Virus record (IMG/VR): IMGVR_UViG_3300022905_000015
Coordinates: 1-52,491 of that record
DNA length: 52,491 bases
Origin: a virus
Strand: one strand, 5' to 3'
Under the pieces are notes generated by a model. It was not told the DNA's origin, did not search any database, and was given only the letters and a program-made list of their open reading frames with translations. This document shows, in pieces, positions 17,159-41,097 of this stretch (its first letter is position 1; every line of letters begins with the position of its first letter). The translations under genes were made by a program, and so were the position numbers.

Positions 17159-19344
17159 TGGCAAAGCCAATCATTATTGAAGTAGCGGATGCGTGTAATA
17201 CAAATGTTAATTCGGCTTTAGATTTAATTGACAATACAGATACGTTACTGAGCGAGAAAGCGTTAGGTGTTGCTATTCGCAAAGGGCTGAACAAGGCTAC
17301 TCAGCCTACACGATTTAGGGATATGTTTCTTGAAGGCGTAATCAACGGTTACCTTTCAGGCTTTGGTACTCCTATTGCAAACGCTATCTCTATTGGTGTT
17401 CAAAACTTTACAGCACCAACTCTTGAAGCTATTGGTGCATTGACTGATACGTTGCGTGTAACTAACAGAGCACGTAATGCGGCAGGAGAATTACTTAAAC
17501 CTAATCGTGAACTACGTGATGCTGTTGCTATGTTTGAAGCGGCAATGGAGGGGTTTGGTGCGGACATTATGTTCCTCAAGCAAGGATGGAAGAGTGGTTA
17601 TCCTCTTGATGTAAACAGGTCATCTGCATCTCTTGCACGTCAACTAGGTGTCAGTACAGCAGAAGCGCGTAAGGTAATTATCAAAGAGATTGCCGCAACT
17701 AAAGCGGCAAAAGCATTTGCTGAACCAGACAACACATCCACAATGGATCAATTAACTAAAGGCTTCACTGCTCAAATGCAGAAGGAAGGGTTAAACCCTA
17801 CTGAGTTTGAAGCGTATATGGATGAAGCCTATGATTATATCTCAGGTCATATTCCATCTAAGTTTGGTGGCAAGATTATCCGTTGGCCTACTCGCGCAAC
17901 AGTTGCAATTGATGAGTATGGTAAGGCACGTTTTCGTAGACAGAAGATTGCACAGATGGCATCTGTCAAGGCGCGTGAGGATGAAGCAAAAGGACTTGGA
18001 TCATACCGTGATCTGTATAACCAGTATCGTAAGGACTCATTGAGATCAGTCGATGAAGTTAAGGCTGATGAGATTGAAGAAGTCTTTGGCCGCATGAAGA
18101 TGGATATTGGTAAAGTCTTTGGTCAATCAGATGATGACATGACTCCATACGGTAGCATCAAAGAGTTTGCATTACGTCAGACGTTTCAGTCTCCCTTGTT
18201 CGGTGCGGCTAAAGCGGCACAGGATATTAGACGTGACCATGCATTCGTTGCTTACTTTGTACCGTTCATTAAGACACCATGGAACATCCTAAAAGAAGGT
18301 ACATCATTTGTTCCTGGGCTAGGTTACGCATTACGTCCTGCTTATTTGAAGGGTGCAGTGCCTGTCAAGATGTCTAATGATGAGCTTATTCCTAGACAGA
18401 TTCTAGGGGCTACAATGTTTGCAGGAGTCGGTGCTATGTTTGCTAGTGGTAATATCACTGGCTCTCCTAGAAATGCAGATGAAGCGCAAGCATGGAAGGA
18501 TCAAGGCATTCAACCTTTCTCAATTAAGATAGGGGATAGTTGGGTTTCGTATCAGCGGATTGAACCTATCGCTACAGTGCTTGGTCTTGCGGCTGACTTG
18601 TTACGTCTAACCGATGAGTATGTTCAGAACCCTGATCTTGATGCGTCATTCTTGGATGAAGCGGCAAAGCCTACACTTGTAGCAATCAAGGCAAACATCT
18701 TAAGTAAGTCATTCATGGAAGGGTTCTCAAATATCCTTGAGGTTATGTCAGACCCTGCTCGATATGCTGAATCATTCATGGCATCTACATTACGTCCACT
18801 GTCTCCTGCAGTATTAAACATGGTTGCCCGCGCAACTGATCCATATGAACGTCTTGCAACAACACCCGTCGAGAAGTTACAACAACGCTTCCCGTTCCTG
18901 CGTCAAGACTTACCAGTGGAGTACGGTGCAATTGGAGGTCCGCGTGAGACTAACTTTACACAGGCAGTTACTGGCTTTGGGATTACATCAGGGCCAGAGA
19001 CAATGCTACAACAAGAGCTTGCTGATCTGAACTATACAAAGGGGCGTGTAGGAGATACCATTATGCGCGTTGGTTTAACAACAGCACAGCTTGGTGAGTT
19101 CCGTATGATGTCTGCTGAGATGCTGACTCCTATACTAGATCGCTTTATTAACTCAGCGACATACAGGAATGCAACTAATTCTAGACGTAAGGTACTACTT
19201 GATAAGATTACAGGACAAGTGCAGAACGCAGTGCGTAGGAAATACTTTGCACAGTTGCGGAAGCAAGACCCAGAGGTTGCACGTAAGTTCTACAATCAGG
19301 AGATCTTGAAGAGAGGACTAGAGGAACAAGTACCACTCCGCTAG
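17158..19344 (+). CDS. Large internal virion core protein, gp16-like
   Basis: I choose ATG 17158, overlapping the preceding TAA, rather than a GTG at 17152. This gives 728 residues. The protein is mainly helical, with hydrophobic patches such as ILGATMFAGVGAMFASGNI (about residues 420-438) and conserved-looking phrases FVPFIKTPWNILKEG and SPLFGAAKAAQDIRRDHAF. Similar phrases occur in the long terminal ejection proteins of marine podoviruses. No lysozyme or peptidase motif is seen. It is the last late gene; the palindrome and terminator follow at 19344-19387. Confidence 0.65.
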   Translation: MAKPIIIEVADACNTNVNSALDLIDNTDTLLSEKALGVAIRKGLNKATQPTRFRDMFLEGVINGYLSGFGTPIANAISIGVQNFTAPTLEAIGALTDTLRVTNRARNAAGELLKPNRELRDAVAMFEAAMEGFGADIMFLKQGWKSGYPLDVNRSSASLARQLGVSTAEARKVIIKEIAATKAAKAFAEPDNTSTMDQLTKGFTAQMQKEGLNPTEFEAYMDEAYDYISGHIPSKFGGKIIRWPTRATVAIDEYGKARFRRQKIAQMASVKAREDEAKGLGSYRDLYNQYRKDSLRSVDEVKADEIEEVFGRMKMDIGKVFGQSDDDMTPYGSIKEFALRQTFQSPLFGAAKAAQDIRRDHAFVAYFVPFIKTPWNILKEGTSFVPGLGYALRPAYLKGAVPVKMSNDELIPRQILGATMFAGVGAMFASGNITGSPRNADEAQAWKDQGIQPFSIKIGDSWVSYQRIEPIATVLGLAADLLRLTDEYVQNPDLDASFLDEAAKPTLVAIKANILSKSFMEGFSNILEVMSDPARYAESFMASTLRPLSPAVLNMVARATDPYERLATTPVEKLQQRFPFLRQDLPVEYGAIGGPRETNFTQAVTGFGITSGPETMLQQELADLNYTKGRVGDTIMRVGLTTAQLGEFRMMSAEMLTPILDRFINSATYRNATNSRRKVLLDKITGQVQNAVRRKYFAQLRKQDPEVARKFYNQEILKRGLEEQVPLR

Positions 19345-19360
19345 GTTAACTTGGTTAACC
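19344..19360. promoter_or_regulatory. 17-bp palindromic repeat, copy 1 (GGTTAACTTGGTTAACC)
   Basis: Palindromic arms GGTTAAC/GTTAACC around TTG. It overlaps the last base of the final late gene and sits 12 bases before the terminator hairpin, at the meeting point of the two transcription units. Confidence 0.85.
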
Positions 19361-19365
19361 TCTAA

Positions 19366-19387
19366 AAAGAACCCCGCCGAAGCGGGG
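19366..19387 (-). terminator. Rho-independent terminator of the early operon
   Basis: Read on the minus strand: CCCCGC-TTCG-GCGGGG followed by TTCTTTTT. This is a stable UUCG tetraloop hairpin with a U-rich tail. It lies 22 bases after the last early gene. On the plus strand no T-tract follows, so it mainly serves the leftward unit. Confidence 0.85.
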
Positions 19388-19408
19388 CAAGTTCCACTGG
19401 AGGGTGGT

Positions 19409-20547: not shown

Positions 20548-20680
20548 ATAGTTGTCTCTCCAGTGTGTCCAGTTTATTGGACAAGTCTATGATTGTGTCG
20601 TATGCGTCATTTAATAATTGTTTATTGAAAGGGTCTATGTCTTTGACCAGTTCAATTCTCTCTAGTATATTGGTTTGCAT
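20516..20680 (-). CDS. 54-aa micro-gene between nrdA and nrdB
   Basis: An open frame of 54 codons fills the gap between nrdA and nrdB and overlaps the nrdB start by 32 bases. ATG 20680 follows AGGGG. The product (start MQTNILERIELVKDIDPF, later IIDLSNKLDTLERQL) is acidic and likely a small coiled-coil helix. Position, direction and full use of the gap support a real gene. Function unknown; it could be a small subunit-interacting peptide, which is speculation. Confidence 0.55.
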   Translation of the reverse strand: MQTNILERIELVKDIDPFNKQLLNDAYDTIIDLSNKLDTLERQLYELAGTEQKL

Positions 20681-20686
20681 AGTCCC

Positions 20687-22444
20687 CTATCCCTGACAAC
20701 TCACACAGACATCATCGTCTTCAAAGTCTTTCAACGCATTACGGTCCACTTTAGTCCCAACCTTCTCCGCTGTAACACCTGCAGTCGTGCGTAAATAATA
20801 TAATCCTTTAAGCCCTTCCTTCCACGCCTTGAGGTGTACCTGATTGACAATAGCCTTGTCAGTACCCGATGGAAAGAACACGTTAACACTCTGCCCTTGA
20901 CATATAAACTCTTGTCTTTTAGCTGAGTGTTCGACAACCCACCCCTGATCGAGTTCAAATGCTGTCTTAAATGTAGCCTTCTCGTCGTCGGATAGGAACT
21001 CCAAGTGCTGTACAGAGCCTTCATTCTCAAGAATACTTTGCCATATCTTCTTGGTGTTCTTTCCTTTGTCATCTAAAAGTTCCTCCAAGTACGGATTGCG
21101 AACAGTATGACTCCCGGCACGAGTACGATGGACAAAGCAGTTGCTAAGACGTGGTTCAATGCTAGCAGAGCACCCACATAGGATACTAGAATTAGCGTTA
21201 GGAGCAATAGCCAACAGATGCATATTTCTAATACCATAACCCACCCCATCAGGACACTCACCACGTCCCACAGCGAGCGAGTACGTGGCCTCAAGTGCTT
21301 GGGATTTGATGTCCTTGAAGAGGTTGTAGTTTTCACTCGCCGCTTGCCATGACTCCCAAGCTATGCCTTTGCCTTGGAGGTAGCCGTGGAAGCCCATTGC
21401 TCCAAGACCGACTGAGCGTTCTCTGTAAGCTGAGTAGACAGCTTTTGATAGTTCTTCTGGTGCGTTGTCAATAAAGAATTGAAGGACGTTGTCCAAGAAT
21501 CTGATAAGGTCTCCAACCATGCCGCTTGATTTCCAGTCATCGTATCGCTCAAGGTTGACTGAGGAGAGGCAACAGACTGCTGTGCGTTCTTCACTTGTTG
21601 CGAGATGGATTTCGTTGCAGAGGTTACTGCCATTAATTGACAGTCCAAGTTTTCTTTGAGCTTCCGGTAAACCTCTTCTGGCTGTGTCGATAAAGTTAAG
21701 GTAAGGACTGCCAGTTCTGAAGCGAGCTTCAAGTATTCGTTGCCAAAGTTTACGAGCTTGGATTGTATCTCTAACAATTCCTGTGTTGGGATCAACAAGG
21801 TTCCATTCTGTTCCATTGATTACACACTCCATAAAATCATCTGTGATATTCACAGCATTAAAAAGATTAAAACATTTGCGGTTGATGTCACCACCAGTCG
21901 CTACTTTAAAGTTGATGAACTCCTCGATATCAGGATGGCTTACGTCTAGGTACGCCGCGTAGCTTCCCTTCCGTGTCTTCCCCTGTTTGTACGCTGTCAT
22001 CTGTGCGTCCACTACTTTCATGAACGGTATCGGTCCCGGTGCTTTGTCGGAGATCCCTCTCACGTCTGACCAATGCCCACCCACACCTCCGCCCTTTACG
22101 GAAAGCCATGCTACTTCACCATTGTGTTCAATAAGGCTGTCAAGAGAGTCAGCCACATAAGTAAGGAAGCAACTAATAGGCAAGCCACTAATCCTTCCGT
22201 TCGGTTCTGGGGCATTAGATAAGACAGGCGACGCAAACATGAACCAACCCTTTGAGGCATAGTCATAAATACGTTGTGCCAAATCCAGATCCCCATCGCA
22301 GTAAGCCACTGCCGCGCGAGCAAACGCCTGCTGAGGAGACTGCTCATGAGCAAGCATATAGTAATCTTGCATGAGCGTAGTCGCTTGGTCACTGAGGCGA
22401 AAGTCTCTTTCATAGTCAATCGTTATCCCAAGGTGTTGAGTCAT
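20687..22444 (-). CDS. nrdA: Ribonucleotide reductase class Ia, large (alpha) subunit
   Basis: I choose ATG 22444 (MTQHLGITIDYERDF), 10 bases after GGAG; an ATG 9 bases upstream is too close to that site. The 585-residue protein has the redox pair Cys92 (LPISCF) and Cys291/292 (VCCLSS), the thiyl centre Cys276 and Glu278 in NLCNEI, Tyr549-Tyr550 in GLYYLRT for radical transfer, and C-terminal CVSC for re-reduction. There is no N-terminal ATP cone, so allosteric dATP shut-off is probably missing, as in many phage enzymes. It works with NrdB encoded 140 bases downstream. Confidence 0.93.
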   Translation of the reverse strand: MTQHLGITIDYERDFRLSDQATTLMQDYYMLAHEQSPQQAFARAAVAYCDGDLDLAQRIYDYASKGWFMFASPVLSNAPEPNGRISGLPISCFLTYVADSLDSLIEHNGEVAWLSVKGGGVGGHWSDVRGISDKAPGPIPFMKVVDAQMTAYKQGKTRKGSYAAYLDVSHPDIEEFINFKVATGGDINRKCFNLFNAVNITDDFMECVINGTEWNLVDPNTGIVRDTIQARKLWQRILEARFRTGSPYLNFIDTARRGLPEAQRKLGLSINGSNLCNEIHLATSEERTAVCCLSSVNLERYDDWKSSGMVGDLIRFLDNVLQFFIDNAPEELSKAVYSAYRERSVGLGAMGFHGYLQGKGIAWESWQAASENYNLFKDIKSQALEATYSLAVGRGECPDGVGYGIRNMHLLAIAPNANSSILCGCSASIEPRLSNCFVHRTRAGSHTVRNPYLEELLDDKGKNTKKIWQSILENEGSVQHLEFLSDDEKATFKTAFELDQGWVVEHSAKRQEFICQGQSVNVFFPSGTDKAIVNQVHLKAWKEGLKGLYYLRTTAGVTAEKVGTKVDRNALKDFEDDDVCVSCQG

Positions 22445-22592
22445 CGAAATCATTCTCCAGTGTATCTTGTTTTTGTTCAATCAGGTCAGAGAACCTGTCA
22501 ACCAAATCTTCAGAGGTGAGTTCTAATGTTTCCATCAGAGTCACCTCATCCAACTGCTTGAGTTTATCTTTAATATCTTCAAGCGTAAGCAT
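22416..22592 (-). CDS. 58-aa acidic micro-gene upstream of nrdA
   Basis: ATG 22592 to TGA 22416, overlapping the nrdA start by 29 bases. The product starts MLTLEDIKDKLKQLDEVTLM and continues ETLELTSEDLVDRFSDLIEQ. It is acidic and helical. The pattern is familiar from small proteins next to replication genes in T7-like phages, but no function is known to me. It is out of frame with nrdA and codes through the GGAG used by nrdA, so translation of the two is likely coupled. Confidence 0.65.
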   Translation of the reverse strand: MLTLEDIKDKLKQLDEVTLMETLELTSEDLVDRFSDLIEQKQDTLENDFDDSTPWDND

Positions 22593-22597
22593 CTATT

Positions 22598-22828
22598 TTA
22601 CCACACTTCTATGAGTTTGTCAAGGTAATGTTTGCACTTTTGTAAGTCTAACACGCCACCTTTATCCTGAAAGCGAGCAATGTATTTGATCACATTACCA
22701 ATTAGGAAACCTTTGAACTGCTCTTCAGTCATCCATTCCTGCATAGCATCCCAAGGCTGTACCTTCTTGTCGGTGTAGTGTGTGCCACCAAGCTGATAGT
22801 TCCTAGCCATCTCATTTAAGTCAGGCAT
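22598..22828 (-). CDS. DUF3310 protein (T7 gp1.7-related)
   Basis: The 76-residue protein has the full DUF3310 pattern: GGTHYTDKKVQPWDAM (residues 14-29), FLIGNVIKYIARF (41-53) and KGGVLDLQKCKHYLDKLI (56-73). In T7 the gp1.7 protein with this domain is a nucleotide kinase and influences nucleotide pools. Here it lies between a phosphoesterase and nrdA, in line with nucleotide metabolism. It overlaps the upstream gene by 8 bases. Confidence 0.85.
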   Translation of the reverse strand: MPDLNEMARNYQLGGTHYTDKKVQPWDAMQEWMTEEQFKGFLIGNVIKYIARFQDKGGVLDLQKCKHYLDKLIEVW

Positions 22829-23582
22829 AACGCTCCCTCAAATAATTGATAGACACTGGCATCTCATCGAACGTACCTTCCATTACCTCATGTAACATCC
22901 AGATACCAGACCATGATCCATTAGTCTGCGGGTTCAGATACTCTTCATCATGTTGATAATAGATACCTGCAAACAGACCAGTGATTCGTTTACCATCAGC
23001 GCGTCGAGCGTAAGAGATACTACGATCCTGTACGTGACCCATCACACATGACATATGTTGCTTATTGATTAGTGCATTAGAAGAACTTACTGGTCTTCCC
23101 ATAACACCACTAACAAAATAATGGCTGTAACAGACACCATCAATAACCACAGGTTGTAAGAAATCATACACTTCCCATCCCATCTCTGTCAAGTACAGAT
23201 CATCAAAGGACATGAGACCTTCTAGCTTAGGGTCTGCATTGATAGCGCGAGCAATACGATACTCATGGTTACCTAATGTAAATACTAAGCGAGGGTTCCA
23301 CTGCTTGTCTTTGTTACGCTTGAGTCTATCTTGTTCCTTACGAATAGGATCAAGGAACTCTTGCATTGCCTCGACACCTGCATTGATGTCATTGATGTAT
23401 CGCCTACCTTCAAACGATTTCTTACCGACATCATAGGTAGATAGACTAGGCATATCAAAATGATCACCGATGTGTACGATTACATCAGGCTTCTTCTCTA
23501 CGGCATATTCTCCTGCCCAACGCAGATGGCTAGTCGGATGATCCGGCTTCACTTGCGTGTCAGGTATGACCATATGTTTCAT
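22821..23582 (-). CDS. Calcineurin-like metallophosphoesterase
   Basis: The 253-residue protein has the ordered metal-binding motifs of the family: Asp8 in PDTQ, GDH (39-41), GNHE (104-107), His154 in YSHYF and GHV (182-184). These bind two metal ions and hydrolyse phosphoesters. In phages such proteins may process DNA ends, nucleotides or cyclic nucleotides; the substrate here cannot be read from sequence. The ATG follows CAGGAG directly after the nuclease gene, and palindromic repeat copy 2 lies 14 bases upstream. Confidence 0.85.
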   Translation of the reverse strand: MKHMVIPDTQVKPDHPTSHLRWAGEYAVEKKPDVIVHIGDHFDMPSLSTYDVGKKSFEGRRYINDINAGVEAMQEFLDPIRKEQDRLKRNKDKQWNPRLVFTLGNHEYRIARAINADPKLEGLMSFDDLYLTEMGWEVYDFLQPVVIDGVCYSHYFVSGVMGRPVSSSNALINKQHMSCVMGHVQDRSISYARRADGKRITGLFAGIYYQHDEEYLNPQTNGSWSGIWMLHEVMEGTFDEMPVSINYLRERYA

Positions 23583-23583
23583 A

Positions 23584-23937
23584 TCAGTCTCCTGTGGTTA
23601 ACTTGGTTAACCTCAACAATTCAAAAAAGTGTTCGGCATCTAAGACTGCGAGAGGTCTTCGTCTGTTTTCTTTAACGATGACAAGTGGCTGTGCATCACC
23701 TCGATTGTTGCACTGGTCAACAAAACGATAGACTCCAACTCTCGCAAGGCTTTTGCATTCGACATCATACGTGAAAGACTTGCGAGCCAGAGGGCTAAGT
23801 TGAACATCACTGCCACTAACACCCATACTGGTTGATCTAACATCATCACTCTCCAGATGCGGGAACGTCTGTAGTATCTGTTCCGCTGTCCATTGTTGTA
23901 GTTTCCTTCCCTTTGCTTTCGCGCTCTGTGTCTTCAC
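23584..23937 (-). CDS. PD-(D/E)XK-type endonuclease (T7 gp3-like role)
   Basis: I choose GTG 23937, 7 bases after GGGAG, giving 117 residues; an upstream ATG at 23991 lies further inside the exonuclease gene. Motifs: KAKGRKLQQWTAEQILQTFP (helix), TSMGVSGSDVQLSP with the metal-binding Asp, and YDVECKSLARVG with the Glu-X-Lys pair, then PLVIVKENRRRPLAVLDAEH. This is a PD-(D/E)XK nuclease arrangement and probably acts on branched or host DNA, as gp3 does in T7. It overlaps the exonuclease gene by 92 bases in another frame. Confidence 0.75.
   Translation of the reverse strand: MKTQSAKAKGRKLQQWTAEQILQTFPHLESDDVRSTSMGVSGSDVQLSPLARKSFTYDVECKSLARVGVYRFVDQCNNRGDAQPLVIVKENRRRPLAVLDAEHFFELLRLTKLTTGD
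23596..23612. promoter_or_regulatory. 17-bp palindromic repeat, copy 2 (GGTTAACTTGGTTAACC)
   Basis: It lies within the last codons of the nuclease gene, read there as LTKLT, and 14 bases upstream of the phosphoesterase start, next to its ribosome binding site. Confidence 0.85.
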
Positions 23938-24601
23938 TTGGCGGCTCCCATTGCTCTCCTTGTTGACGCTGAAGGTACAGTAGTTTTCCATTCTCTACTG
24001 CACGTTCAACACTACCTAATTGCTCAACGCAAGTATCAAACATTTCTTTTTCACTCAGTCCATTGAGTAACTTGTAAGCCTTCTTAGGCCCAATACCTTT
24101 GACACCCATGATGTTATCAATGCGGTCTCCAACAAGGAACTGCATATAGAAGTTGAGTAATCCCTGCTCATGCGTGATGTAGTACCTGTCTTTCTTAACA
24201 AAGTTGTAGTGCCATCCCTGCACCTGATCAAAGTCTTTGTCAAGAGAAACAATGATAGAGTCGTCACCATGTGAGGTTGCCGCAATAGCGATCTCATCAT
24301 CAGCTTCACACCCATCAGATACTACACCATTCCATGATAGCTCAAGGTACTCACGCAACAGTGCATGATGCGTAGGCTTTTCACCTTTGCGGTTTCCCTT
24401 GTATGGGGCGGTGACTGCAACATCAAATCGGAAGTTGGTCTTACCAGTTAGGTAAGTCTGCCAGTCTGATACGTTTATCTCAAACATCAACATCTCCTCC
24501 AAGAAGGAGGCCATCGTCCTGATAGCCACACTCTCAGATTCTTCGTTGGTTGCAAACCCAATGCGGTAGCAAAGGATGTCACCGTCAATCAGCGCAATCA
24601 C
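23846..24601 (-). CDS. 5'-3' exonuclease, FEN/T7 gp6 type
   Basis: GTG 24601 overlaps the SSB stop (GTGA). The 251-residue protein shows Asp6/Asp8 in LIDGDIL, the acidic cluster CEADDEIA (98-105), VSLDKDFDQV (118-127) with two more metal ligands, and the DNA-binding helix-hairpin-helix part VGDRIDNIMGVKGIGPKKAY (157-176). It would remove RNA primers and degrade host DNA, as gp6 does in T7 (about 300 residues). The last 40 residues are Ser/Thr/Glu-rich and disordered; there the DNA also encodes the start of the next nuclease in another frame. Confidence 0.9.
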   Translation of the reverse strand: MIALIDGDILCYRIGFATNEESESVAIRTMASFLEEMLMFEINVSDWQTYLTGKTNFRFDVAVTAPYKGNRKGEKPTHHALLREYLELSWNGVVSDGCEADDEIAIAATSHGDDSIIVSLDKDFDQVQGWHYNFVKKDRYYITHEQGLLNFYMQFLVGDRIDNIMGVKGIGPKKAYKLLNGLSEKEMFDTCVEQLGSVERAVENGKLLYLQRQQGEQWEPPSEDTERESKGKETTTMDSGTDTTDVPASGE

Positions 24602-25017
24602 AGGGTGTCTTCTTCTACCGTCACGTCTGCCTTAGTTTCTTCAGGCACATACTGATTCAACTCAGTGACCATGAGCTTGACGATACCAAGAGAGATACCA
24701 GTCTGTCCTGTTGGAGACTTCCAAGAGTAAGGCTTCGCCATGATAGTCGCACGCGAACCATTACCAACAAGGACGTTACGGCTGATAGCTTCACCGTTCT
24801 TGTCGTATGGAGTGATCTCATACTTAGACTTGCAGGTTACAAAGAACCCACGCTCATCGTCTTTCGACTTGATCTGCACACCAGTCGTCTCGATCTGATC
24901 GATCTGATCTGTTGACAGGTTAGCCAAGTCTACCTGAAACTTTTGTGACAACTTGTTGACCTCGAAAAGGTTAGGCCAGAACAGTTCGACGTTGTCTAGT
25001 TTAATTAAGTTACTCAT
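24598..25017 (-). CDS. Single-stranded DNA-binding protein, T7 gp2.5-like
   Basis: The 139-residue protein has an OB-fold-like strand order (LDNVELFWPNLFEV, KFQVDLANLS, GFFVTCKSKYEITPYDK, then RATIMAKPYSWKSPTGQTG) and an acidic C-terminal tail ending ADVTVEEDTL, as needed to contact the polymerase and helicase in T7 gp2.5. It has its own strong promoter at 25047-25075 and a good ribosome binding site, TAGGAG. High expression fits the stoichiometric need for SSB. Confidence 0.85.
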   Translation of the reverse strand: MSNLIKLDNVELFWPNLFEVNKLSQKFQVDLANLSTDQIDQIETTGVQIKSKDDERGFFVTCKSKYEITPYDKNGEAISRNVLVGNGSRATIMAKPYSWKSPTGQTGISLGIVKLMVTELNQYVPEETKADVTVEEDTL

Positions 25018-25046
25018 ACTTTTCTCCTACGGAAGTGAGTCTATAT

Positions 25047-25075
25047 ATTATAGCACACAAATTAATGTGTGTCAA
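25047..25075 (-). promoter_or_regulatory. Consensus sigma70-type promoter for SSB and downstream genes
   Basis: On the minus strand TTGACA (25075-25070), 17 bases, TATAAT (25052-25047), with TGC before the -10. The -35 lies inside the end of the polymerase gene. The spacer contains the inverted repeat CACACA-N6-TGTGTG, a possible repressor site. The leader then holds TATATAGACT, also found before the gene at 31759. Confidence 0.9.
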
Positions 25076-26696
25076 ACCAAGTCTTACCAATTTTAGACTC
25101 GGCATCTACTGGGCATCGAAAGCCCAAGGTAAGCCCTGCTTGTGAGGCAGAGTCGCACATGATCTGTGCAACCTCTTCACCATACTTCTCCTCTGTTTCA
25201 ATTTGAATTTCATCGTGTACAAATGCAACCTGTCGCACAGGTAAGCAAAGTCGCTTAAACTTTTGGTGTGCTTCAATACACCACTGCTTTGCAATGATAG
25301 CCCCACAACCTTGAAGGAGGCTGTTGAGTGCGGCGTGCTCAGATCTAACAATGATCCTTCTACCATCCAACCCCGGTACGTACCCTTTGCTCGCCACTTT
25401 CTTAACTTTTTCCATAAGTCTTGATAACGCAGGGGTGTTAGCATAAAAGCGCGACAAGACCTCTTGCCCCTGACGCGCACCTCCCCCGACAATACTACCA
25501 ATCTTTGCGGGTCCCGCGCCGTAAAGGGTTGCATAGATGAGAGTCTTAGCCTGCGGTCTCGTAATGCCTGCGGCATCTGCGTTCTTCTGATGGATATCTC
25601 CATTCAATAACTCCTCTGTCCACTCATCATCCTGCATATAATGGGCAAGACATCTCAACTCGATCCCGCTTAAGTCCGTGCCGCATAAGACATGACCATC
25701 ATCAACAGTCCACAGACCACGACACTCAGGTCCATACTCACTGTTGACACTGGGGATTTGTCCCATGTTTGGTTTTTGGTGGGTCATACGTCCAGTAACA
25801 GCACCATTAGTAATCACCCTACCATGTACCCTGCCGTCATCCTTGAGGTTATCAATCCATGACTCAAGCAAACCGACACGCTTCTGTATCATCAGGTACT
25901 CAGCGATCAACTGCGCTTCAGGCAGATCAATAGCCTTGAGTGTACCCTCATCAACTATGATAGTACCTTTCTCAGTCTTCTTAGTAAACTTAACACCACG
26001 CTCCTGAAGACGCTGTGCGATCTGTTGTCTTGACCCCACATTGAATACGGTAACCCCATCTTTGAGACGCTTGCCTGTCTTCTCTGACCAACGCTCTTCC
26101 ACAATCGGAGGAAATATATTTTGCAAGTGATCAGTAATATAAGCCATTCGATCTTTAAGTTGAGCCAACAAAGTGATAGCTTCTTTCTCGTTGAGTTTGA
26201 ATCCATTGTCCTCTTGCCTCTTCATAATAAAAGCGATGCTGTGTTCCAGATCAATAGACACACTGTAGTCTTCTAGTTCTTTGCACAATTGTTTGTACAA
26301 CTTGACTGTTAAGTTCACGTCTTGAGAACAATACTCAACCATCTGTTCAGTAAGACCGCCATTGAAATCAGTGAAGTCCTGTTTGTAATCACCAAGACGT
26401 TCGCCCCATGCACGTAGACTATGGCCACCCTCCAGTTGTGGATTCCATAGCCTTGACATGACCAGAGTATCACGAACTTTGGAGAGGGGAATCTTTACTC
26501 CCCAAATCCGTGACAACACTGGCCCGTCAAACCCAATGATGTTGTGACCTACTACTACATCAGCCTTGTCCACTAGCTCTTGGACTTTCTGTGCGTTTGT
26601 GTATACAGATGTATAACTGTCGTAGTTACATCCACAGCACCAGATTCTGTCGTGCGTTAGGTTGGTCTCAATGTCGAGTACCAATACCTTCATCAT
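25062..26696 (-). CDS. DNA polymerase, family A, T7-like
   Basis: The 544-residue enzyme has a 3'-5' exonuclease domain (DIETN at 8-12, NIIGFDG at 52-58, YCSQDV at 122-127) and a polymerase domain with motif A CGTDLSGIELRCLAHYM (336-352), O-helix RPQAKTLIYATLYGAG (378-393) and motif C VHDEIQ (491-496). Tyr386 occupies the place of E. coli Phe762 and T7 Tyr526. It is shorter than T7 gp5 (704) but has all catalytic residues. Start: ATG 26696 or, better spaced from GAGGAG, ATG 26693. It overlaps the helicase stop. Confidence 0.95.
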   Translation of the reverse strand: MMKVLVLDIETNLTHDRIWCCGCNYDSYTSVYTNAQKVQELVDKADVVVGHNIIGFDGPVLSRIWGVKIPLSKVRDTLVMSRLWNPQLEGGHSLRAWGERLGDYKQDFTDFNGGLTEQMVEYCSQDVNLTVKLYKQLCKELEDYSVSIDLEHSIAFIMKRQEDNGFKLNEKEAITLLAQLKDRMAYITDHLQNIFPPIVEERWSEKTGKRLKDGVTVFNVGSRQQIAQRLQERGVKFTKKTEKGTIIVDEGTLKAIDLPEAQLIAEYLMIQKRVGLLESWIDNLKDDGRVHGRVITNGAVTGRMTHQKPNMGQIPSVNSEYGPECRGLWTVDDGHVLCGTDLSGIELRCLAHYMQDDEWTEELLNGDIHQKNADAAGITRPQAKTLIYATLYGAGPAKIGSIVGGGARQGQEVLSRFYANTPALSRLMEKVKKVASKGYVPGLDGRRIIVRSEHAALNSLLQGCGAIIAKQWCIEAHQKFKRLCLPVRQVAFVHDEIQIETEEKYGEEVAQIMCDSASQAGLTLGFRCPVDAESKIGKTWFDTH

Positions 26697-28303
26697 AACT
26701 CCTCATCTTTTACCTCAGTCATTCTACCTGTTGCGTGAGTATAAAGCAAGCTACAAGCAGGACCAGTGATACCACAGAAACGATTCTTCAGTACCCGCAC
26801 GCGAGTGGTATTACGCTCAGTGATATCCTCAGCCTGACCGTTACGCTCCAGACCAATCACCATGTCAGATAGCTGTGCGATAGAACCAGAGCCACGCAAC
26901 TGTGCCAGTGATGTAGCTGTCCCTTCCTCATGTCCCTTACCTTCAGGACGCTTGAGGTGTGAGACACAGATAAGACATATACCTGTCTCTTGCACCAACA
27001 TCCGGAGCTTGGTCATGATCTCATCTATCGCTTTACGTTCGTCACCACTGGCTTGAGCAGACACCACGATACTAATATGATCGAGAAATATATAACTACA
27101 CCCCAATCCTTTAGCAAGATATCGGACACGATTAATAATGTTATCGACGCTAGTGCTACCGAAATGGTCAAAGAGATATATGCGATCAGTCCCAAGAGTT
27201 TTGCTAAAAGCATCACGCTTCTCCTCTTCAGTGGCATCTGAGTCTGGTAGATGCAGTGGTTGATTTGCCGCAAGCGACATGATAGACAGCGCAGACTTCC
27301 GCACTGACTCCTCTAAGAACATCAGACCTACGTTGTCCTCTGTCTTATTCAAGATGTGCCATACAATCTCTCGCACAAACTGTGACTTACCTAGTCCAGA
27401 TCCTGCAGTGATAGTCACTAGCTCACCCTTACGTACACCATAGGTTAACTTGGTTAACCCTGCGAATGGGTAATCACAGTCCGATGGGGCAACAGGTTTC
27501 ATTACCTCCTCAAGCAGAGTACCACCCGCAACAATACCATCAGGTACGTGCTGTTCAGAAGACCACCACTTGTCAGTGAACTCCTTCATCTTCTTGTTCT
27601 GAAGATAGTCGCACGCATCCTTCATACCATCGAGGTGCATAAAGACTTTGGCTTTACTACCAAAGATCTCTGCCGCCTGTGATGCCGCACGCTTGCCTGC
27701 ATCGTCACCGTCAAAGCAGATCACGACGTTGTCAAAGGAATCTAACCACTCATACTGAGCGCGGATGTCTTTGGCGGCAGAGGCCGCACCGTTCCGTACC
27801 GAAACCACCGGATACTTAGACCCTAGCATTTGGTATGCCGCCATCGCATCGAACTCTCCCTCAACAATGGTGACGTACTTACCACCCTTGCTGAATAGAT
27901 TCTGTCCGTACAGCACAGCACTCTTCCAGTCACCTGCGATTGAGAACTGCTTGTCCTCTGCACGTTCCTTCTGTGCCACGAGTTGACCACTCGCATTACA
28001 GTAGCCAAAGAATGTAGTGCCGTCAGCGACAGAGCACTTGTATGCCTTGGCGGTATCGCTACTGATACCACGGTCAATAATTGTACGATACCCTGCGTCT
28101 TGGAACTTAGACAGTTGAGTATCAGTCAGTTGTTTAGCTTCCACCTGTACCTCCCTATGGGTTGGTGTGTAATCGTCGCTCTGTGAGCCTGTGTATGCCT
28201 CGCAGACAAAGCAAAAGGATGAACCGTCATCGTTGTATGACAGCCCATCGCTTGAGCCACAGTCACTGCATGGTTGGTGCGTCTTGACAAATGGCACGCT
28301 CAT
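26693..28303 (-). CDS. DNA primase-helicase, T7 gp4-like
   Basis: The 536-residue protein has a zinc-binding domain (Cys12, Cys15, Cys31, Cys34), a TOPRIM primase core (EGEFDA 148-153; CFDGDDAGK 196-204) and a DnaB-like helicase with Walker A TAGSGLGKS (299-307) and Walker B-like FLDHISIVV. These are close to T7 gp4 throughout. It makes primers and unwinds the fork with the polymerase encoded next. The ATG at 28303 is only one base from AAGGAG; GTG 28297 has better spacing, so the true start is uncertain by two codons. Confidence 0.95.
   Translation of the reverse strand: MSVPFVKTHQPCSDCGSSDGLSYNDDGSSFCFVCEAYTGSQSDDYTPTHREVQVEAKQLTDTQLSKFQDAGYRTIIDRGISSDTAKAYKCSVADGTTFFGYCNASGQLVAQKERAEDKQFSIAGDWKSAVLYGQNLFSKGGKYVTIVEGEFDAMAAYQMLGSKYPVVSVRNGAASAAKDIRAQYEWLDSFDNVVICFDGDDAGKRAASQAAEIFGSKAKVFMHLDGMKDACDYLQNKKMKEFTDKWWSSEQHVPDGIVAGGTLLEEVMKPVAPSDCDYPFAGLTKLTYGVRKGELVTITAGSGLGKSQFVREIVWHILNKTEDNVGLMFLEESVRKSALSIMSLAANQPLHLPDSDATEEEKRDAFSKTLGTDRIYLFDHFGSTSVDNIINRVRYLAKGLGCSYIFLDHISIVVSAQASGDERKAIDEIMTKLRMLVQETGICLICVSHLKRPEGKGHEEGTATSLAQLRGSGSIAQLSDMVIGLERNGQAEDITERNTTRVRVLKNRFCGITGPACSLLYTHATGRMTEVKDEEL
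27443..27459. promoter_or_regulatory. 17-bp palindromic repeat, copy 3 (GGTTAACTTGGTTAACC)
   Basis: It lies inside the primase-helicase gene just before the Walker A region and is read as LTKLT (residues 283-287). It keeps the full 17-bp sequence although codon choice would allow change. Confidence 0.85.
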
Positions 28304-28502
28304 TCTCCTTGTAGAAATCTGCCATCAATGATAGCGCATATGACTCCTTGTTGTCAGCGCAGTAGTCTGCAAGAGAAGTCAGCACTCGATGTAATCCATA
28401 ACGATAAATCAAATCGCAAGTGTCAACAAGAACTTGATGTTGAATCATCTCTTCCATCGCAAGAGTAAAATCGTCAACAGGAATATTTAAATCTTTATAC
28501 AC
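28263..28502 (-). CDS. Unknown early protein (79 aa)
   Basis: GTG 28502 is placed 7 bases after AGGAG. The product (IPVDDFTLAMEEMIQHQVLV, later ADYCADNKESYALSLMADFY) is acidic and helical, with no known domain. It overlaps the primase-helicase start by 41 bases, so the two are probably coupled. The upstream leader contains an inverted repeat and an extended -10 promoter. Confidence 0.6.
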   Translation of the reverse strand: MYKDLNIPVDDFTLAMEEMIQHQVLVDTCDLIYRYGLHRVLTSLADYCADNKESYALSLMADFYKENERAICQDAPTMQ

Positions 28503-28524
28503 TTCAGCACTCCTAAGTAGATGT

Positions 28525-28554
28525 AAGAGATAACTAAGATAATAATTATCTCTT
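28525..28554. repeat. Inverted repeat in early leader (9-bp arms)
   Basis: AAGAGATAA (28525-28533) and TTATCTCTT (28546-28554) can pair around a 12-base loop in the RNA leader of the gene starting at 28502. The leader shares GACATATGCAA with the late leader near 32303-32315. Confidence 0.6.
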
Positions 28555-28574
28555 GCATATGTCTTTAAAGTAAT

Positions 28575-28580
28575 ATTATA
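28575..28580 (-). promoter_or_regulatory. Extended -10 promoter before the 79-aa gene
   Basis: On the minus strand TGATATAAT gives an extended -10 with a perfect TATAAT. No good -35 box is present at 17 bases. It would produce a leader of about 70 bases before GTG 28502. Confidence 0.5.
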
Positions 28581-28778
28581 TCACGAATCAGGACGAAAGT
28601 CTGCTTGAAAAAGATCATCATCATCTTCATGCATTAGATCCATTCGCTCGACAGCCTTTACCTCATCCTTAACAAAGGTATAACAATGATTGCATAAGTC
28701 TATGAATTCATTGGTCTCAGCACTCTTGCGTGTGGACTCAAAGTCTGTCAGTTCTACGTTACACGATAGGCATCTCAC
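28581..28778 (-). CDS. Small zinc-finger-like protein (65 aa)
   Basis: GTG 28778 lies 9 bases after AAGGAG and fits better than the far upstream frame opening. The product has two CXXC pairs, RCLSCNVEL (residues 2-10) and LCNHC (29-33), which would bind one zinc ion. The C-terminus is acidic (HEDDDDLF). Small zinc proteins of this kind are frequent in phage early regions and may modify host transcription or nucleases; that is inference. A matching promoter is present at 28815-28843. Confidence 0.7.
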   Translation of the reverse strand: MRCLSCNVELTDFESTRKSAETNEFIDLCNHCYTFVKDEVKAVERMDLMHEDDDDLFQADFRPDS

Positions 28779-28814
28779 AACTGTGCGCTCCTTATTAAGT
28801 ACAGTAAGATGACT

Positions 28815-28843
28815 AGTATAACACACCCGAATAAAAATCTCAA
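28815..28843 (-). promoter_or_regulatory. Promoter of the zinc-protein gene
   Basis: On the minus strand TTGAGA (28843-28838), 17 bases, TATACT (28820-28815), with TGT before the -10. The start codon lies about 30 bases after the expected transcription start. The -35 overlaps the end of the upstream HTH gene. Confidence 0.75.
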
Positions 28844-29073
28844 ACGTGACTCCACGCCCCATCACGGGCATTGACAATTTCCCACACACGTTGCTTGCTG
28901 ATGCCAAACTTCTCACCGATAGCCCGCTGAGATAGGCTGTCAAGTTTTTCTTTGGCGCGTATGCGCTCTTGATTCAACTCAAGAATCAATCGAACATCGC
29001 TCTCATCAATCTTTGCGTTGTGATGCTTCGATCCGCGTGGTGCATAAGGACGATCTGTATCATAATTAGCCAT
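28840..29073 (-). CDS. Small helix-turn-helix DNA-binding protein (77 aa)
   Basis: Residues 48-68 (LSQRAIGEKFGISKQRVWEI) form a clear helix-turn-helix, followed by VNARDGAWSHV. The N-terminus is basic with HHNAKIDESDVRLILELN. This type resembles small phage HTH proteins of unknown target. Palindromic repeat copy 4 lies 35 bases upstream of the start, so autoregulation is conceivable, and the protein is the only obvious candidate in the window for binding the repeated palindrome. Confidence 0.75.
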   Translation of the reverse strand: MANYDTDRPYAPRGSKHHNAKIDESDVRLILELNQERIRAKEKLDSLSQRAIGEKFGISKQRVWEIVNARDGAWSHV

Positions 29074-29107
29074 TGTGTTCTACCTTGTATATACAAAAAA
29101 AATACGA

Positions 29108-29124
29108 GGTTAACTTGGTTAACC
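29108..29124. promoter_or_regulatory. 17-bp palindromic repeat, copy 4 (GGTTAACTTGGTTAACC)
   Basis: Intergenic, between the HTH gene start (29073) and the stop of the upstream gene (29134). It lies where the -35 region of the HTH gene would be expected, ahead of a TATATA/TATACA stretch near 29087-29095. Confidence 0.85.
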
Positions 29125-29133
29125 CCGCGAGTG

Positions 29134-29421
29134 TTATTCGTAACTTACCTCTTCCATTTTCATTGATGGTCCTTCATCCACAACATAACGCCAGATCTCT
29201 CTGTCTGTTCCACACATCCACTTGACTTCCTCGATGAACCCTTGTGGCAAACTCTGGCTGTAGTCTTCCAACTCAACAGACTGCAAGTGCCATGAGTCAG
29301 GGATATCATAACCCTTCTCAAACTTCCACACGACATTGAGACAGAACTCATTGTCCTCTGGGTCATACCACCAATGAGTACCGTAATACTCATGACCATC
29401 TTTGTATAAGCTAGTTGACAT
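29134..29421 (-). CDS. Unknown early protein (95 aa)
   Basis: Acidic, aromatic-rich protein (YGTHWWYDPEDNEFCLNVVW at residues 13-32; GFIEEVKWMCGTDREIWRYV later). No recognised family. The start overlaps the stop of the DUF3846-like gene by 11 bases. Confidence 0.55.
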   Translation of the reverse strand: MSTSLYKDGHEYYGTHWWYDPEDNEFCLNVVWKFEKGYDIPDSWHLQSVELEDYSQSLPQGFIEEVKWMCGTDREIWRYVVDEGPSMKMEEVSYE

Positions 29422-29764
29422 ACATCACCCCATACATTCTACCTACTTCATCACGGGTCATAAACTTGTGGTCAATGTCCGCAACATCCTCTGCATCAAG
29501 CCATGCATCCTTGGAGTTACCTCCCGCATCAATACCAAGGAACAACACACGACCTGCATACGGATCAGGGTATATATCAGGGGCATACCAGAACTCAGAC
29601 TCCTCATGTAACCCATTGTCATTGACATAGATTGCATCACCGCCCTCATCATAACCACCACTGCAGAAGATATCACACTGCAAATGCTTACTGATATCTG
29701 TGTAGTCATTCACTTCTACATTCTCAATCGTCTTGAGATATGGATCTACTAATACTGCTTTCAT
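29411..29764 (-). CDS. DUF3846-like protein (117 aa)
   Basis: The protein starts KAVLVDPYLKTIENVEVND, has CDIFCSGGYDEGGDAIYVND (residues 30-49) and later GRVLFLGIDAGGNSKDAW. This order (small beta domain, GDAIYVDD-like strand, LG-D-G turn) is that of DUF3846 proteins, found in many phages and plasmids without known function. The start codon overlaps the preceding stop (TAATG). Confidence 0.7.
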   Translation of the reverse strand: MKAVLVDPYLKTIENVEVNDYTDISKHLQCDIFCSGGYDEGGDAIYVNDNGLHEESEFWYAPDIYPDPYAGRVLFLGIDAGGNSKDAWLDAEDVADIDHKFMTRDEVGRMYGVMYVN

Positions 29765-29973
29765 TACTTCACCTCTGCTATCAAACCGTCACTCATTGTG
29801 ACCTGTGCAAAAAACTCACGACCTTTGTTAGTCGTAAGCTGTGGTCTGTTAGAGCCTGTCAACACACCATTAGGTCTGTACTCTGGACCAAAGTAGGATG
29901 TCTCAGTGTAGTTAAGACGCTGACCAATATGCTCACGCATTTCTTTCTTGCTACTGTAATTGAATATCATCAT
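29764..29973 (-). CDS. Small conserved phage protein (69 aa)
   Basis: I choose ATG 29973, 9 bases after an AGG; an upstream ATG at 29994 has no visible binding site. The segment NYSSKKEMREHIGQRLNYTE then TSYFGPEYRPNG and REFFAQVTM recurs in short phage proteins of unknown function. It is TAATG-coupled to the next gene. Confidence 0.6.
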   Translation of the reverse strand: MMIFNYSSKKEMREHIGQRLNYTETSYFGPEYRPNGVLTGSNRPQLTTNKGREFFAQVTMSDGLIAEVK

Positions 29974-30041
29974 GGTTATGTACCTATATGTCATACACTT
30001 TTAAAGACAAGCAGTTTTACATCATGCTCAGGATGGGAGGA

Positions 30042-30671
30042 TTAACCGATCAGCGCGGCAACGTGCATCTGAGATACTTCATTGCCATCTGCAAAACGCC
30101 CACGGTTACATGGCTTGTAAACTAATTGCTCACACCATGAGTCCCACAGTTTCTCTGTACTACGATTGACCTTGCACAGGCTGACGTAGTTCATCAGCTT
30201 AGCAAACTTAGTCTGCGGCTTGGTGATGTCAGAGAATGTAAAGTCTTTGGGATCTACCTTGCGGAATCGTCGCAAGTTATGCACATCAAAACAACCAACA
30301 CGACCGAACATCATCTGCATGACAAAGCCTGCCTTGACAGCGCGGAGTCCAGGCACTTCGACAAGACGCAACAACATCGCCGCATCTTTCTGATCCTGAG
30401 TACCACCAAACTCTTTCTTCGGTGACATCCACAACTGCATGAGATCATCATACAATTCCTTGCCGTGTTCTTGCAGATAATTGTGAGTGTCAATCTTGAA
30501 TCCCCACACATACTTAGAGTTAACTTGGTTAACCCTGTAGTCGTCCATCTGACGCTTCATCGTATGGAATGGTGTCTTCACAGACAGCACAACAAACATA
30601 ATACCCATGCTCATTTGCTCATGGTTCTCTTGCATATACGCATTGATAATTGGATTATGATTCTTGAACAT
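30042..30671 (-). CDS. HhH-GPD glycosylase-like protein
   Basis: The 209-residue protein contains VEVPGLRAVKAGFVMQMMFG (104-123) followed by GCFDVHNLRRF (126-136). This lines up with the helix-hairpin-helix and catalytic Asp of base-excision glycosylases (EndoIII LPGVGRKTA...VDTH; OGG1 GVGTKVAD...VDVH). Asp129 matches the catalytic Asp. The Lys of bifunctional enzymes is replaced by Val112, so a monofunctional glycosylase or a non-catalytic DNA-binding role is more likely. No iron-sulphur Cys cluster is seen. The start overlaps the 32-aa gene stop (TAATG). Confidence 0.6.
   Translation of the reverse strand: MFKNHNPIINAYMQENHEQMSMGIMFVVLSVKTPFHTMKRQMDDYRVNQVNSKYVWGFKIDTHNYLQEHGKELYDDLMQLWMSPKKEFGGTQDQKDAAMLLRLVEVPGLRAVKAGFVMQMMFGRVGCFDVHNLRRFRKVDPKDFTFSDITKPQTKFAKLMNYVSLCKVNRSTEKLWDSWCEQLVYKPCNRGRFADGNEVSQMHVAALIG
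30518..30534. promoter_or_regulatory. 17-bp palindromic repeat, copy 5 (AGTTAACTTGGTTAACC)
   Basis: It lies inside the HhH-GPD-like gene and is read as VNQVN, a different frame from copies 2 and 3 (LTKLT). One outer base differs. Confidence 0.85.
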
Positions 30672-30769
30672 TATTTTAACCCTCTCAAGAAATTAGAAAT
30701 AACTTGGGACAGCAAATGCGCCGCCCCAATAAAGGCCAACAGGCCAAGCCACAGTACAAAGAACTCCAT
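30671..30769 (-). CDS. 32-aa membrane micro-protein
   Basis: ATG 30769 overlaps the upstream stop (TGATG) and the TAA overlaps the next ATG (TAATG), so the frame fills the gap exactly. The product is one transmembrane helix (MEFFVLWLGLLAFIGAAHLL) with a short basic tail (NFLRGLK). Overlaps at both ends are strong evidence for a translated gene. Function unknown; small phage membrane proteins may act in exclusion or host membrane control. Confidence 0.6.
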   Translation of the reverse strand: MEFFVLWLGLLAFIGAAHLLSQVISNFLRGLK

Positions 30770-31062
30770 CAGTCTTGAAACTCCGGAGTGTCTATCCCTT
30801 CATATGCTTCCATGATCTGACGACAATGAGTGTGAAAGAACTCTTGCATTCTTGTCTCAAGATCACGAGCTTGATCATACGATAACTCACGCGCAACATG
30901 ACGTATCGCCCAATAAGCACCACCAATCTTGCAACTCACGCGAGGCTCGAAAGTCTTCGGTTCGTTGTAAGCCACAGCATATTTATCAACGTCTTCAGGT
31001 CTTGTAATATCCTCAACAACTTCGCTGATGAACGCACCAAGTAATGTTTTAACTGTAATCAT
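30769..31062 (-). CDS. Unknown early protein (97 aa)
   Basis: I choose ATG 31062 (MITVKTLLGAF), 8 bases after GGAGG, not the upstream in-frame start. The product has KIGGAYWAIRHVARELSYDQ then ARDLETRMQEFFHTH, a helical C-terminal half, and no known family. Copy 6 of the palindrome lies between its promoter and its ribosome binding site. Confidence 0.6.
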   Translation of the reverse strand: MITVKTLLGAFISEVVEDITRPEDVDKYAVAYNEPKTFEPRVSCKIGGAYWAIRHVARELSYDQARDLETRMQEFFHTHCRQIMEAYEGIDTPEFQD

Positions 31063-31078
31063 TTTGCAACCCTCCACA

Positions 31079-31095
31079 GGTTAACCAAGTTAACT
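31079..31095. promoter_or_regulatory. 17-bp palindromic repeat, copy 6 (GGTTAACCAAGTTAACT)
   Basis: Intergenic, in the leader of the gene starting at 31062, downstream of the promoter at 31137-31145. Inverse orientation relative to copies 1-5. A protein bound here would block the leader as a roadblock. Confidence 0.85.
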
Positions 31096-31136
31096 TCACA
31101 GCCGGAATGCATACTGTCGCCCGACTGTGTAAGCAC

Positions 31137-31145
31137 AGTATAACA
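31137..31145 (-). promoter_or_regulatory. Extended -10 promoter (TGTTATACT)
   Basis: On the minus strand TGTTATACT, the same element as in the promoter at 28815. No clear -35. It would start transcripts near 31130, just after the terminator at 31197 of the upstream gene. Confidence 0.5.
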
Positions 31146-31190
31146 CAGCAGACCCAGTAAATCCGGCGTAAAAAAATTTATTTTAGACAA

Positions 31191-31212
31191 AGAAAAAGGG
31201 GCTTTCGCCCCT
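31191..31212 (-). terminator. Rho-independent terminator after the first early gene
   Basis: Minus strand AGGGGC-GAAA-GCCCCT followed by TTTTCTTTG. It is placed directly after the stop at 31220 and separates the first early gene from the rest. Confidence 0.85.
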
Positions 31213-31219
31213 CTCTCGA

Positions 31220-31759
31220 TTATGCCGCTTTCGGTGCGGCGGTCAGTTCCTTGAATGCTTTCTGGATATCGGCTTGGCTGTATCCCTCCTCGAATGCTTT
31301 CTCGATCAGTGCATTCATCTTCTCGCCGAGATCCCATTTCTTTGGTTGCGCCTCATCCCCTTCGGCTTCGCGGCAGAGTCCGGCCAGTGCGTTGATATTG
31401 GTGGCGCCCTTGAATTCTTGAACGACCATTGTCTTACCTTCGCCATTTCCCCATAGTTCGGGTTGCTCCTGTTGCTTTTTGCGGATGCCTAGTGCAAAAT
31501 CTAGGATGCATTTTCTCGCTGATTTCAGCGCCTTGATGCTTTTCTTATCCCGTCCGGACGCGAGTAACATGGAATCAAAATCAGCGCAATAGGCCTTAAT
31601 GATATCTTTGTCGAGGTTAACCGAGTTAACCATGTCAATCATGTTATCCACTTGCTTACCATCAGTAGAGTTTACAATCAACTCCACATCAGTATTCAAG
31701 AACTTCGCGTAAGACGCACCTTTCCCATCGAATTGAATCGCTTCGTTTTTAGTAGTCAT
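31220..31759 (-). CDS. First early-arm protein, unknown (179 aa)
   Basis: ATG 31759 follows GGAGGG. The product is acidic at first (DGKGASYAKFLNTDVELIVN), then helical with Lys-rich stretches (GRDKKSIKALKSARKCILDF), and ends EGYSQADIQKAFKELTAAPK. No family recognised. It is the first gene of the leftward arm with its own terminator, so it is probably expressed early and highly. Two palindrome copies flank or lie in it (31615 and 31856). Confidence 0.65.
   Translation of the reverse strand: MTTKNEAIQFDGKGASYAKFLNTDVELIVNSTDGKQVDNMIDMVNSVNLDKDIIKAYCADFDSMLLASGRDKKSIKALKSARKCILDFALGIRKKQQEQPELWGNGEGKTMVVQEFKGATNINALAGLCREAEGDEAQPKKWDLGEKMNALIEKAFEEGYSQADIQKAFKELTAAPKAA
31615..31631. promoter_or_regulatory. 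17-bp palindromic repeat, copy 7 (GGTTAACCGAGTTAACC)
   Basis: It lies inside the first early gene and is read as VNSVN. Perfect arms; the central three bases are CGA (TCG on the other strand). Confidence 0.85.
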
Positions 31760-31822
31760 GAGACCCTCCAGTCTATATATTTACTATTTAATTTATGATC
31801 ATTTGTTATTGACCATATGTAC

Positions 31823-31850
31823 ATATTACCAGAGTCAGGGTAGATAGCAA
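31823..31850 (-). promoter_or_regulatory. Possible weak promoter of the first early gene
   Basis: Minus strand TTGCTA (31850-31845), 16 bases, TAATAT (31828-31823). It is less perfect than the other promoters, but it lies directly beside palindrome copy 8 and 64 bases before the start codon. Confidence 0.35.
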
Positions 31851-31855
31851 GCAAT

Positions 31856-31872
31856 TGTTAACCGAGTTAACC
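31856..31872. promoter_or_regulatory. 17-bp palindromic repeat, copy 8 (TGTTAACCGAGTTAACC)
   Basis: Intergenic, just upstream of the likely -35 of the first early gene. One outer base differs from the consensus. It is the copy nearest to the divergent centre. Confidence 0.85.
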
Positions 31873-32249
31873 TTGTATATTTCTATCGATATGGCTGGGG
31901 TGATAGTTTAATACTATGGGGAGGCTATAGCGGGTACTTATCAGACCCTCACATTCAATAGTCTGGGGCAATGATTGCGTTATCTAGCAAGAACTATGCC
32001 AACTTTTCCATGCAAGAGGCGTGCCAACTATGGAGGGGCGGGGGAGGCGCACAACAGTACGTCGAATATAGTGTACCTGCTTAGACACAATAAAGGGTGA
32101 AATTAGGATTTAAATAAGAATGGTTCGCATTTGCGTAAAAGAGCTATAAGTATATTGTTATTAATAGTAAAAATCAATCGCGCACTGCGGAGAACAGTCT
32201 ACTGAAACCCGCTGAGTAAAGGGAATCTGTACTGATCTTTAAAAAGAGC
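31873..32249. other. Non-coding divergent region between early and late arms
   Basis: About 380 bases with no gene. I see no tRNA and no good open frame. The left part has G-rich runs (GGAGGGGCGGGGGAGGCG near 32033-32050), the right part is A/T-rich (TATTGTTATTAATAGTAAAAA near 32152-32172). Position between divergent units and the G-rich to A/T-rich change would fit a replication origin or a packaging signal; neither is shown. Confidence 0.5.
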
Positions 32250-39862: not shown

Positions 39863-39871
39863 ACAGAGTCC

Positions 39872-39904: not shown

Positions 39905-39920
39905 CTAACTGGAGAGTGTA

Positions 39921-41093: not shown

Positions 41094-41097
41094 GACA

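Follow-up and report, generated by a model that had tools for sequence, protein, structure and literature searches.

An early-region palindrome array under DNA-level selection co-varies with the first early gene in uncultured T7-like aquatic phages

The early region of an uncultured T7-like phage carries repeated copies of a short palindrome that is under selection as DNA, that is replaced at the same places by other palindromes in sister phages, and whose sequence class follows the identity of the first early gene. We consider it likely, in the absence of binding or expression data, that these palindromes act as operators, and as roadblocks to elongation, for a regulator that the phage itself encodes in that gene.

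An eight-copy palindrome array in the early region

The window, by which we mean the whole stretch of DNA analysed (52,491 bp, an IMG/VR virus record), combines a T7-like replication module with ribonucleotide reductase and podovirus-type structural genes. Early and replication genes occupy the minus strand from 31759 to about 19600, while the late genes, preceded by a sigma70-like promoter (TTGACA-N17-TACAAT at 32250), lie on the plus strand. The nearest cultured primase is that of Pelagibacter phage HTVC115P (55%), and the palindrome is absent from the 50 kb of that genome examined. Separately, about 13.5 kb is present twice in the window (1-13529 and 38929-52457, an offset of about 38.9 kb); the far end of this repeat is apparently identical and divergence falls around the tail-fibre genes, a pattern that looks like an assembly join between a genome of about 39 kb and a variant.

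GTTAAC-N3-GTTAAC occurs exactly eight times in the window, as the exact string GTTAACNNNGTTAAC, and every copy lies within the early region or at one of its two ends (19344-31872; Table 1). Allowing up to three mismatches, the 17-mer gives 14 strand-hits against 0.12 expected from shuffles, so that a chance origin of the array is negligible. Distances from copy to copy narrow toward the early promoter (4252, 3847, 1665, 1410, 561, 536 and 241 bp), and relatives keep a site 5-28 bp beyond the same late gene as copy 1. The asymmetric spacer is found in both orientations, as expected because the DNA site is symmetric.

Table 1. Coordinates of the palindrome copies, their carrier genes and associated promoter-like elements in the window
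Feature	Coordinates	Strand	Remarks
Copy 1, GGTTAACTTGGTTAACC	19344..19360		between the late and early operons, whose ends converge here
Copy 2, LTKLT	23596..23612		in the rusA 3' end, 29 bp before the metallophosphoesterase start
Copy 3, LTKLT	27443..27459		within primase-helicase, 12 residues ahead of Walker A
Copy 4	29108..29124		intergenic; start of the small HTH gene 35 bp downstream
Copy 5, VNQVN	30518..30534		within gene 30042-30671
Copy 6	31079..31095		immediately upstream of gene 30769-31077; spacer orientation reversed
Copy 7, VNSVN	31615..31631		within the first early gene
Copy 8, putative operator	31856..31872		directly upstream of the early promoter -35
RusA-like gene, carrier of copy 2	23584..23991	-	phrog_244, 5e-11
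Primase-helicase, carrier of copy 3	26693..28303	-	
Small HTH gene	28840-29073		77-aa protein; weak HTH match
Gene carrying copy 5	30042..30671	-	no Pfam or PHROGs match
First early gene, proposed palindrome regulator	31220..31759	-	179 aa, all-alpha, co-variation; no database relatives
Early promoter, sigma70-like TTGCTA-N16-TAATAT	31823..31850	-	sequence pattern only
Two tandem sigma54-like elements (TGGCACGCCTCTTGC, TGGCATAGTTCTTGC)	31987..32026	-	upstream of the early operon; pattern only

Two other identities for the repeated string were ruled out. The GTTAAC hexamer occurs 26 times in the window, 16 of them in sites, against a Markov expectation of 24, leaving no signal outside the array that would point to avoidance or a restriction role. 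CtrA-type sites have the form TTAA-N7-TTAA; the TTAA boxes here stand N5 apart (N6 in L123). Single matches were also recorded in 34 stretches of unrelated viral contigs, which is few given the 2.9 million contigs.

Selection on the DNA

The intragenic copies are translated as ...RLTKLTTGD (the end of rusA), ...GLTKLTYG (primase-helicase), ...RVNQVNS (30042-30671) and ...MVNSVNL (31220-31759). An earlier note, made from the sequence alone, had proposed that copies 2 and 3 are read as LTKLT and copies 5 and 7 as VNQVN and VNSVN, that the primase-helicase copy lies 12 residues before the Walker A motif, and that such use of two frames reflects selection on the DNA and not a protein motif. The translations confirm both the frames and the spacing (LTKLT ends 12 residues before AGSGLGKS), and the selection claim held on the codon identities, the two frames and an Asn/Thr pattern described below. 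Its label "HhH-GPD-like" for the gene with copy 5 was not supported by any Pfam or PHROGs match. Over the window and its relatives, the 41 intragenic sites are read in the V-N frame (24) or the L-T frame (17) and never in the third, which would put a TAA stop into the gene. Some relatives have a second primase-helicase copy near residue 45 in the other frame (DVNQVN, DVNDVN or DVNGVN), and a single gene therefore carries the string in both frames.

For the codon comparison, relatives were gathered by protein search, independently of the palindrome, and the array class was defined by at least two sites outside the tested gene; codon identity was measured at positions with the same amino acid, at the site and in windows along the gene. 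At the primase-helicase site it reaches 0.832 against a median window of 0.557, with 16 of 453 windows as high, whereas phages without an array show 0.366 at the same columns. The site in the first early gene gives 0.923 against a median of 0.535 (11/165 windows as high). The rusA site (0.889 against 0.720; 17/115) and that in the 30042 gene (0.592 against 0.514; 43/167) point in the same direction, more weakly. Sites in all four genes thus lie above the median on the same-residue comparison that the earlier note had called for; in the 30042 gene, several of the phages lack the site.

Carriers of the primase site all read GGG/GAG TTA ACC/ACG NNG TTA ACC, with constant arms and a variable spacer residue (K, A or S). 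Every sequence with Thr at primase residue 284 comes from a phage with GTTAAC sites; all others have Asn (one has Asp), with free codons. The supposition that this spot is unconstrained in the protein failed, as L286, T287, Y288 and G289, in the second half of the site, are invariant in a nine-sequence alignment. What is peculiar to the primase site is its codon choice and one Asn-to-Thr change. Selection acts on the DNA: codons are nearly fixed in phages with an array and free in those without, and the primase change from Asn to Thr fits the site. A protein motif as the cause is ruled out by the two frames, the free codons and the different residue in array-less phages. Coding sequence appears here to yield to a putative regulatory DNA site, even in a helicase beside its Walker A motif.

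Replacement of the palindrome in sister phages

When relatives at 64-80% primase identity were scanned blindly for inverted repeats present in several copies, the following palindromes were recovered: GGTTAACGNCGTTAACC (L081, L086, L120, L121 and L124), GTTAAC-N4-GTTAAC (L123), TTTAGTCATGACTAAA (L071, L072, L082 and L083), TTTAATCATGATTAAA (L085, L089 and L125), TTTAAGCATGCTTAAA (L080 and L116), TTTGTANNTACAAA (L087, L088, L111 and L112), TTTGTANNNTACAAA (L094) and GTTTCCNNGGAAAC (L201). Sites are 14-18 bp long and number up to 10 per genome, and of 133 own-class sites sampled in 28 loci none falls in a late gene. This wholesale replacement of the palindrome is missing from the earlier note. 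Three close relatives (L099, L100 and L104) lack any repeated palindrome and have an unrelated first early gene.

The palindromes of sister phages often stand at the same positions: ahead of the first gene, immediately behind it, and where rusA meets the metallophosphoesterase gene. Among loci of the GTTAAC and CATG classes that extend to this junction, 13/13 have an own-class site there, irrespective of whether rusA reads through it; in the TTTGTA class a site lies in the adjoining exonuclease/rusA overlap. The rusA end of L086 and L121 differs at the junction site, which L121 reads as VNAVN and not LTKLT, and the distance to the next gene is maintained (-31 vs -29 bp). In the CATG classes the palindrome may include the ATG start of the downstream gene.

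Most GTTAAC-class relatives also keep the spacing of the predicted early promoter (type TTGNNN-N16-TAnnAT), and in this class the outermost site ends 0-24 bp before the kept -35. In other classes a further site follows the promoter, located at the start codon or overlapping it.

Co-variation with the first early gene

The first early gene heads the operon, and its product is mostly 174-259 aa across relatives. Its similarity predicts palindrome class with an AUC of 0.986, a value reached by none of 2000 label permutations. The corresponding values are 0.517 for the terminase large subunit, 0.660 for primase-helicase, 0.592 for the 30042 gene and 0.470 for the 29411 gene. A weaker relation with class is seen for terS, the neighbour of the first gene (0.771), and in smaller samples ssb, exonuclease and rusA reached 0.76-0.91. 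Between classes, first-gene identity is at most 54%, while widely shared early families mostly have members at 70-98%.

The first-gene families of the GTTAAC and CATG classes are homologous (hhalign 98.5%, E 4e-15), and that of the TTTGTA class joins the CATG family only weakly (53%, E 1e-4), without a direct match to the GTTAAC family. AlphaFold models are all-helical (pLDDT 82 for the window protein and 76 for a second), and neither gave a significant Foldseek match; the best VIA scores (Z 5-6) lie in the range of common helical arrangements. No Pfam, PHROGs or solved-structure sequence match and no recognised DNA-binding domain was found for the product, nor were relatives of the gene found among annotated phage records. 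Three integrase SAM-like Pfam models match 5, 3 and 2 of 10 CATG-family members, with a best E of 0.0017; all of these matches are sub-threshold, none to Phage_int_SAM passes the cut-off, and the window protein has none. They offer no more than a tentative lead.

A proposed early-gene switch

That the first-gene product binds the palindromes, that it dimerises, that it represses rather than activates, and that it stops elongation by roadblocking are inferences from the arrangement above. The regulator would be the probable product of 31220-31759 (minus strand), with GGTTAACYNRGTTAACC as its proposed site, and, given the two-fold symmetry of the sites, would most likely act as a dimer. Bound at copy 8, beside the early promoter, and at copy 7, in its own gene, it would reduce its own synthesis; at copies 1-6 along the early operon, it would obstruct RNA polymerase or silence local starts. 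The predicted outcome is that early and replication genes are turned off step by step; exclusion of a second, like phage is a further possibility.

No T7-type RNA polymerase was found in the six records searched, T7 itself giving a positive match as control. Likewise, integrase PF00589 was absent from 11 records (14/14 control genomes were positive), which may be fragments, and partition genes were outside the search. With neither an integrase nor a T7-type RNA polymerase found, host polymerase therefore probably reads all genes, and a switch of this sort is one plausible way in which the early phase could end under it. A temperate life is not excluded, as the records may be incomplete, and the clade might at most be called "apparently virulent". 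A terminase search of bacterial genomes for prophages returned five metagenome-bin contigs (7-24 kb, 65-74% identity, assorted bins) that resemble free phage, as well as four distant partial matches (37-40%).

A bolder and speculative reading is that these proteins form a new family of small all-helical DNA-binding regulators in an apparently virulent uncultured clade, perhaps derived from the DNA-binding domain of a tyrosine recombinase. Their palindromic operators, dispersed through the early genes, would have changed in sequence repeatedly, producing immunity-like, mutually insensitive groups without lysogeny.

Alternative explanations

An alternative is that a host transcription factor binds the palindromes and that both palindrome class and first gene follow the host, the first gene being an unrelated host-takeover gene. 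With the hosts unknown, factors that they encode remain possible, and the first gene occupies the usual host-takeover place. However, the terminase, primase and most early genes track palindrome class weakly or not at all, whereas the match with the first gene is nearly perfect and sites both flank and overlap that gene; moreover, several site changes at fixed positions fit a partner evolving with the phage. We regard this explanation as unlikely.

It also seems improbable that the first-gene product is an activator that brings host RNA polymerase to promoters of the early or middle phase. The location of the GTTAAC-class operator directly upstream of the -35 would suit such a role, but its distance from the -35 varies (0, 1, 5, 9 or 24 bp) without a fixed helical phase, other classes have an operator downstream of the promoter as well, and no promoter role is evident for sites within genes or at the convergent ends.

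Reading of the sites by the 77-aa HTH protein (28840-29073) is supported by its weak HTH match and by copy 4, 35 bp upstream of its start. This is very improbable, given that L121 and L123 have full arrays and no homolog, and that another small protein of the region is 97.7% identical between L072 and L068 despite their different palindromes. Finally, a role of the palindromes at the RNA level, as hairpins that serve in processing or as translational operators, draws on the fairly stable GTTAAC-class hairpin (-5.4 kcal/mol) and on CATG-class sites that can cover a start codon, but is equally hard to sustain when stability varies from 0 to -5.4 kcal/mol across classes, the outermost GTTAAC-class site lies upstream of the early promoter, and spacer orientation is not tied to the transcript.

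Relation to known systems

Regulation by a first-gene product acting at dispersed operators, the reading that we prefer, would have its closest counterpart in genome-spread regulator-operator systems, which are best known from temperate mycobacteriophages. In L5 and Cluster A phages, an immunity repressor acts with stoperators, present in many copies in the promoter and down operons (PMC9283540, PMC6550527). The L5 sites are 13-bp, asymmetric, in one orientation and monomer-bound, with more than 20 per genome; they are described in promoters and short intergenic spaces, and the phages are temperate (PMC9283540, PMC6550527). Both systems share a repeated short site at the early promoter and down operons, a site sequence that follows the regulator gene among relatives (the regulator role being inferred here), a regulator of about 180 aa, and a site at the regulator's own locus. 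Unlike those of L5, the sites described here are 14-18-bp palindromes, unoriented, no more than 10 per genome, often intragenic and confined to the early strand, and no integrase was found. The protein has no relatives detected in database and fold searches, and on that basis alone, without direct comparison to the L5 repressor (HTH plus stoperator domain), its family is apparently unrelated. We describe the layout as stoperator-like without assigning it to the Cluster A type.

The CI/Cro operators of lambda are 17-bp and symmetric, clustered at two promoters and not spread through genes. The window likewise has 17-bp symmetric sites near its early promoter, but these are spread through genes, and no CI/Cro-like protein was found. 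With T7 (Autographiviridae) the phage shares primase-helicase, family A polymerase, gp2.5-like SSB and 5'-3' exonuclease; it differs in the lack of a T7-type RNA polymerase in the six records, in its ribonucleotide reductase genes, and in early and late genes that diverge from one promoter region.

Here a comparable layout is seen among aquatic T7-like phages in which neither an integrase nor a phage RNA polymerase was detected, the protein family being apparently different and the putative operators of several types among sister phages. The evidence suggests, with reasonable confidence, that in these uncultured aquatic phages a switch protein of their own evolves in step with the sites to which it would bind. 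In this view, the clade would provide a natural set of matched protein-site pairs for the study of how DNA recognition evolves, and its operator types would predict which phages could shut each other off in a co-infected cell.

Promoter-like elements upstream of the early operon

In addition to the sigma70-like early promoter, we observed sigma54-like elements (TGGCAC-N5-TTGC), two or three in tandem on the early strand and 180-280 bp upstream of the first early gene. They also occur in L063, L054, L086, L121, L081, L085, L080, L150 and others; about 0.0-0.4 per locus are expected from shuffled sequence, and on the reverse strand only L089 and L125 have any, with one each. RpoN-type promoters in a phage early region would be unusual. 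A sigmaE-like promoter (GGAACT-N16/17-GTCNNA) was seen about -90 to -160 upstream of the first early gene in L072, L083, L085, L080, L150, L088, L111 and L094, which belong to palindrome classes other than GTTAAC. These two kinds of element may hint that early transcription is tied to host envelope-stress sigma factors; no report of sigma54- or sigmaE-type phage early promoters was matched by title in the literature searched. In L067, L123 and L156, repeats of TGTGGATAA or similar (DnaA-box-like) replace the sigma54-like elements upstream of the first gene.
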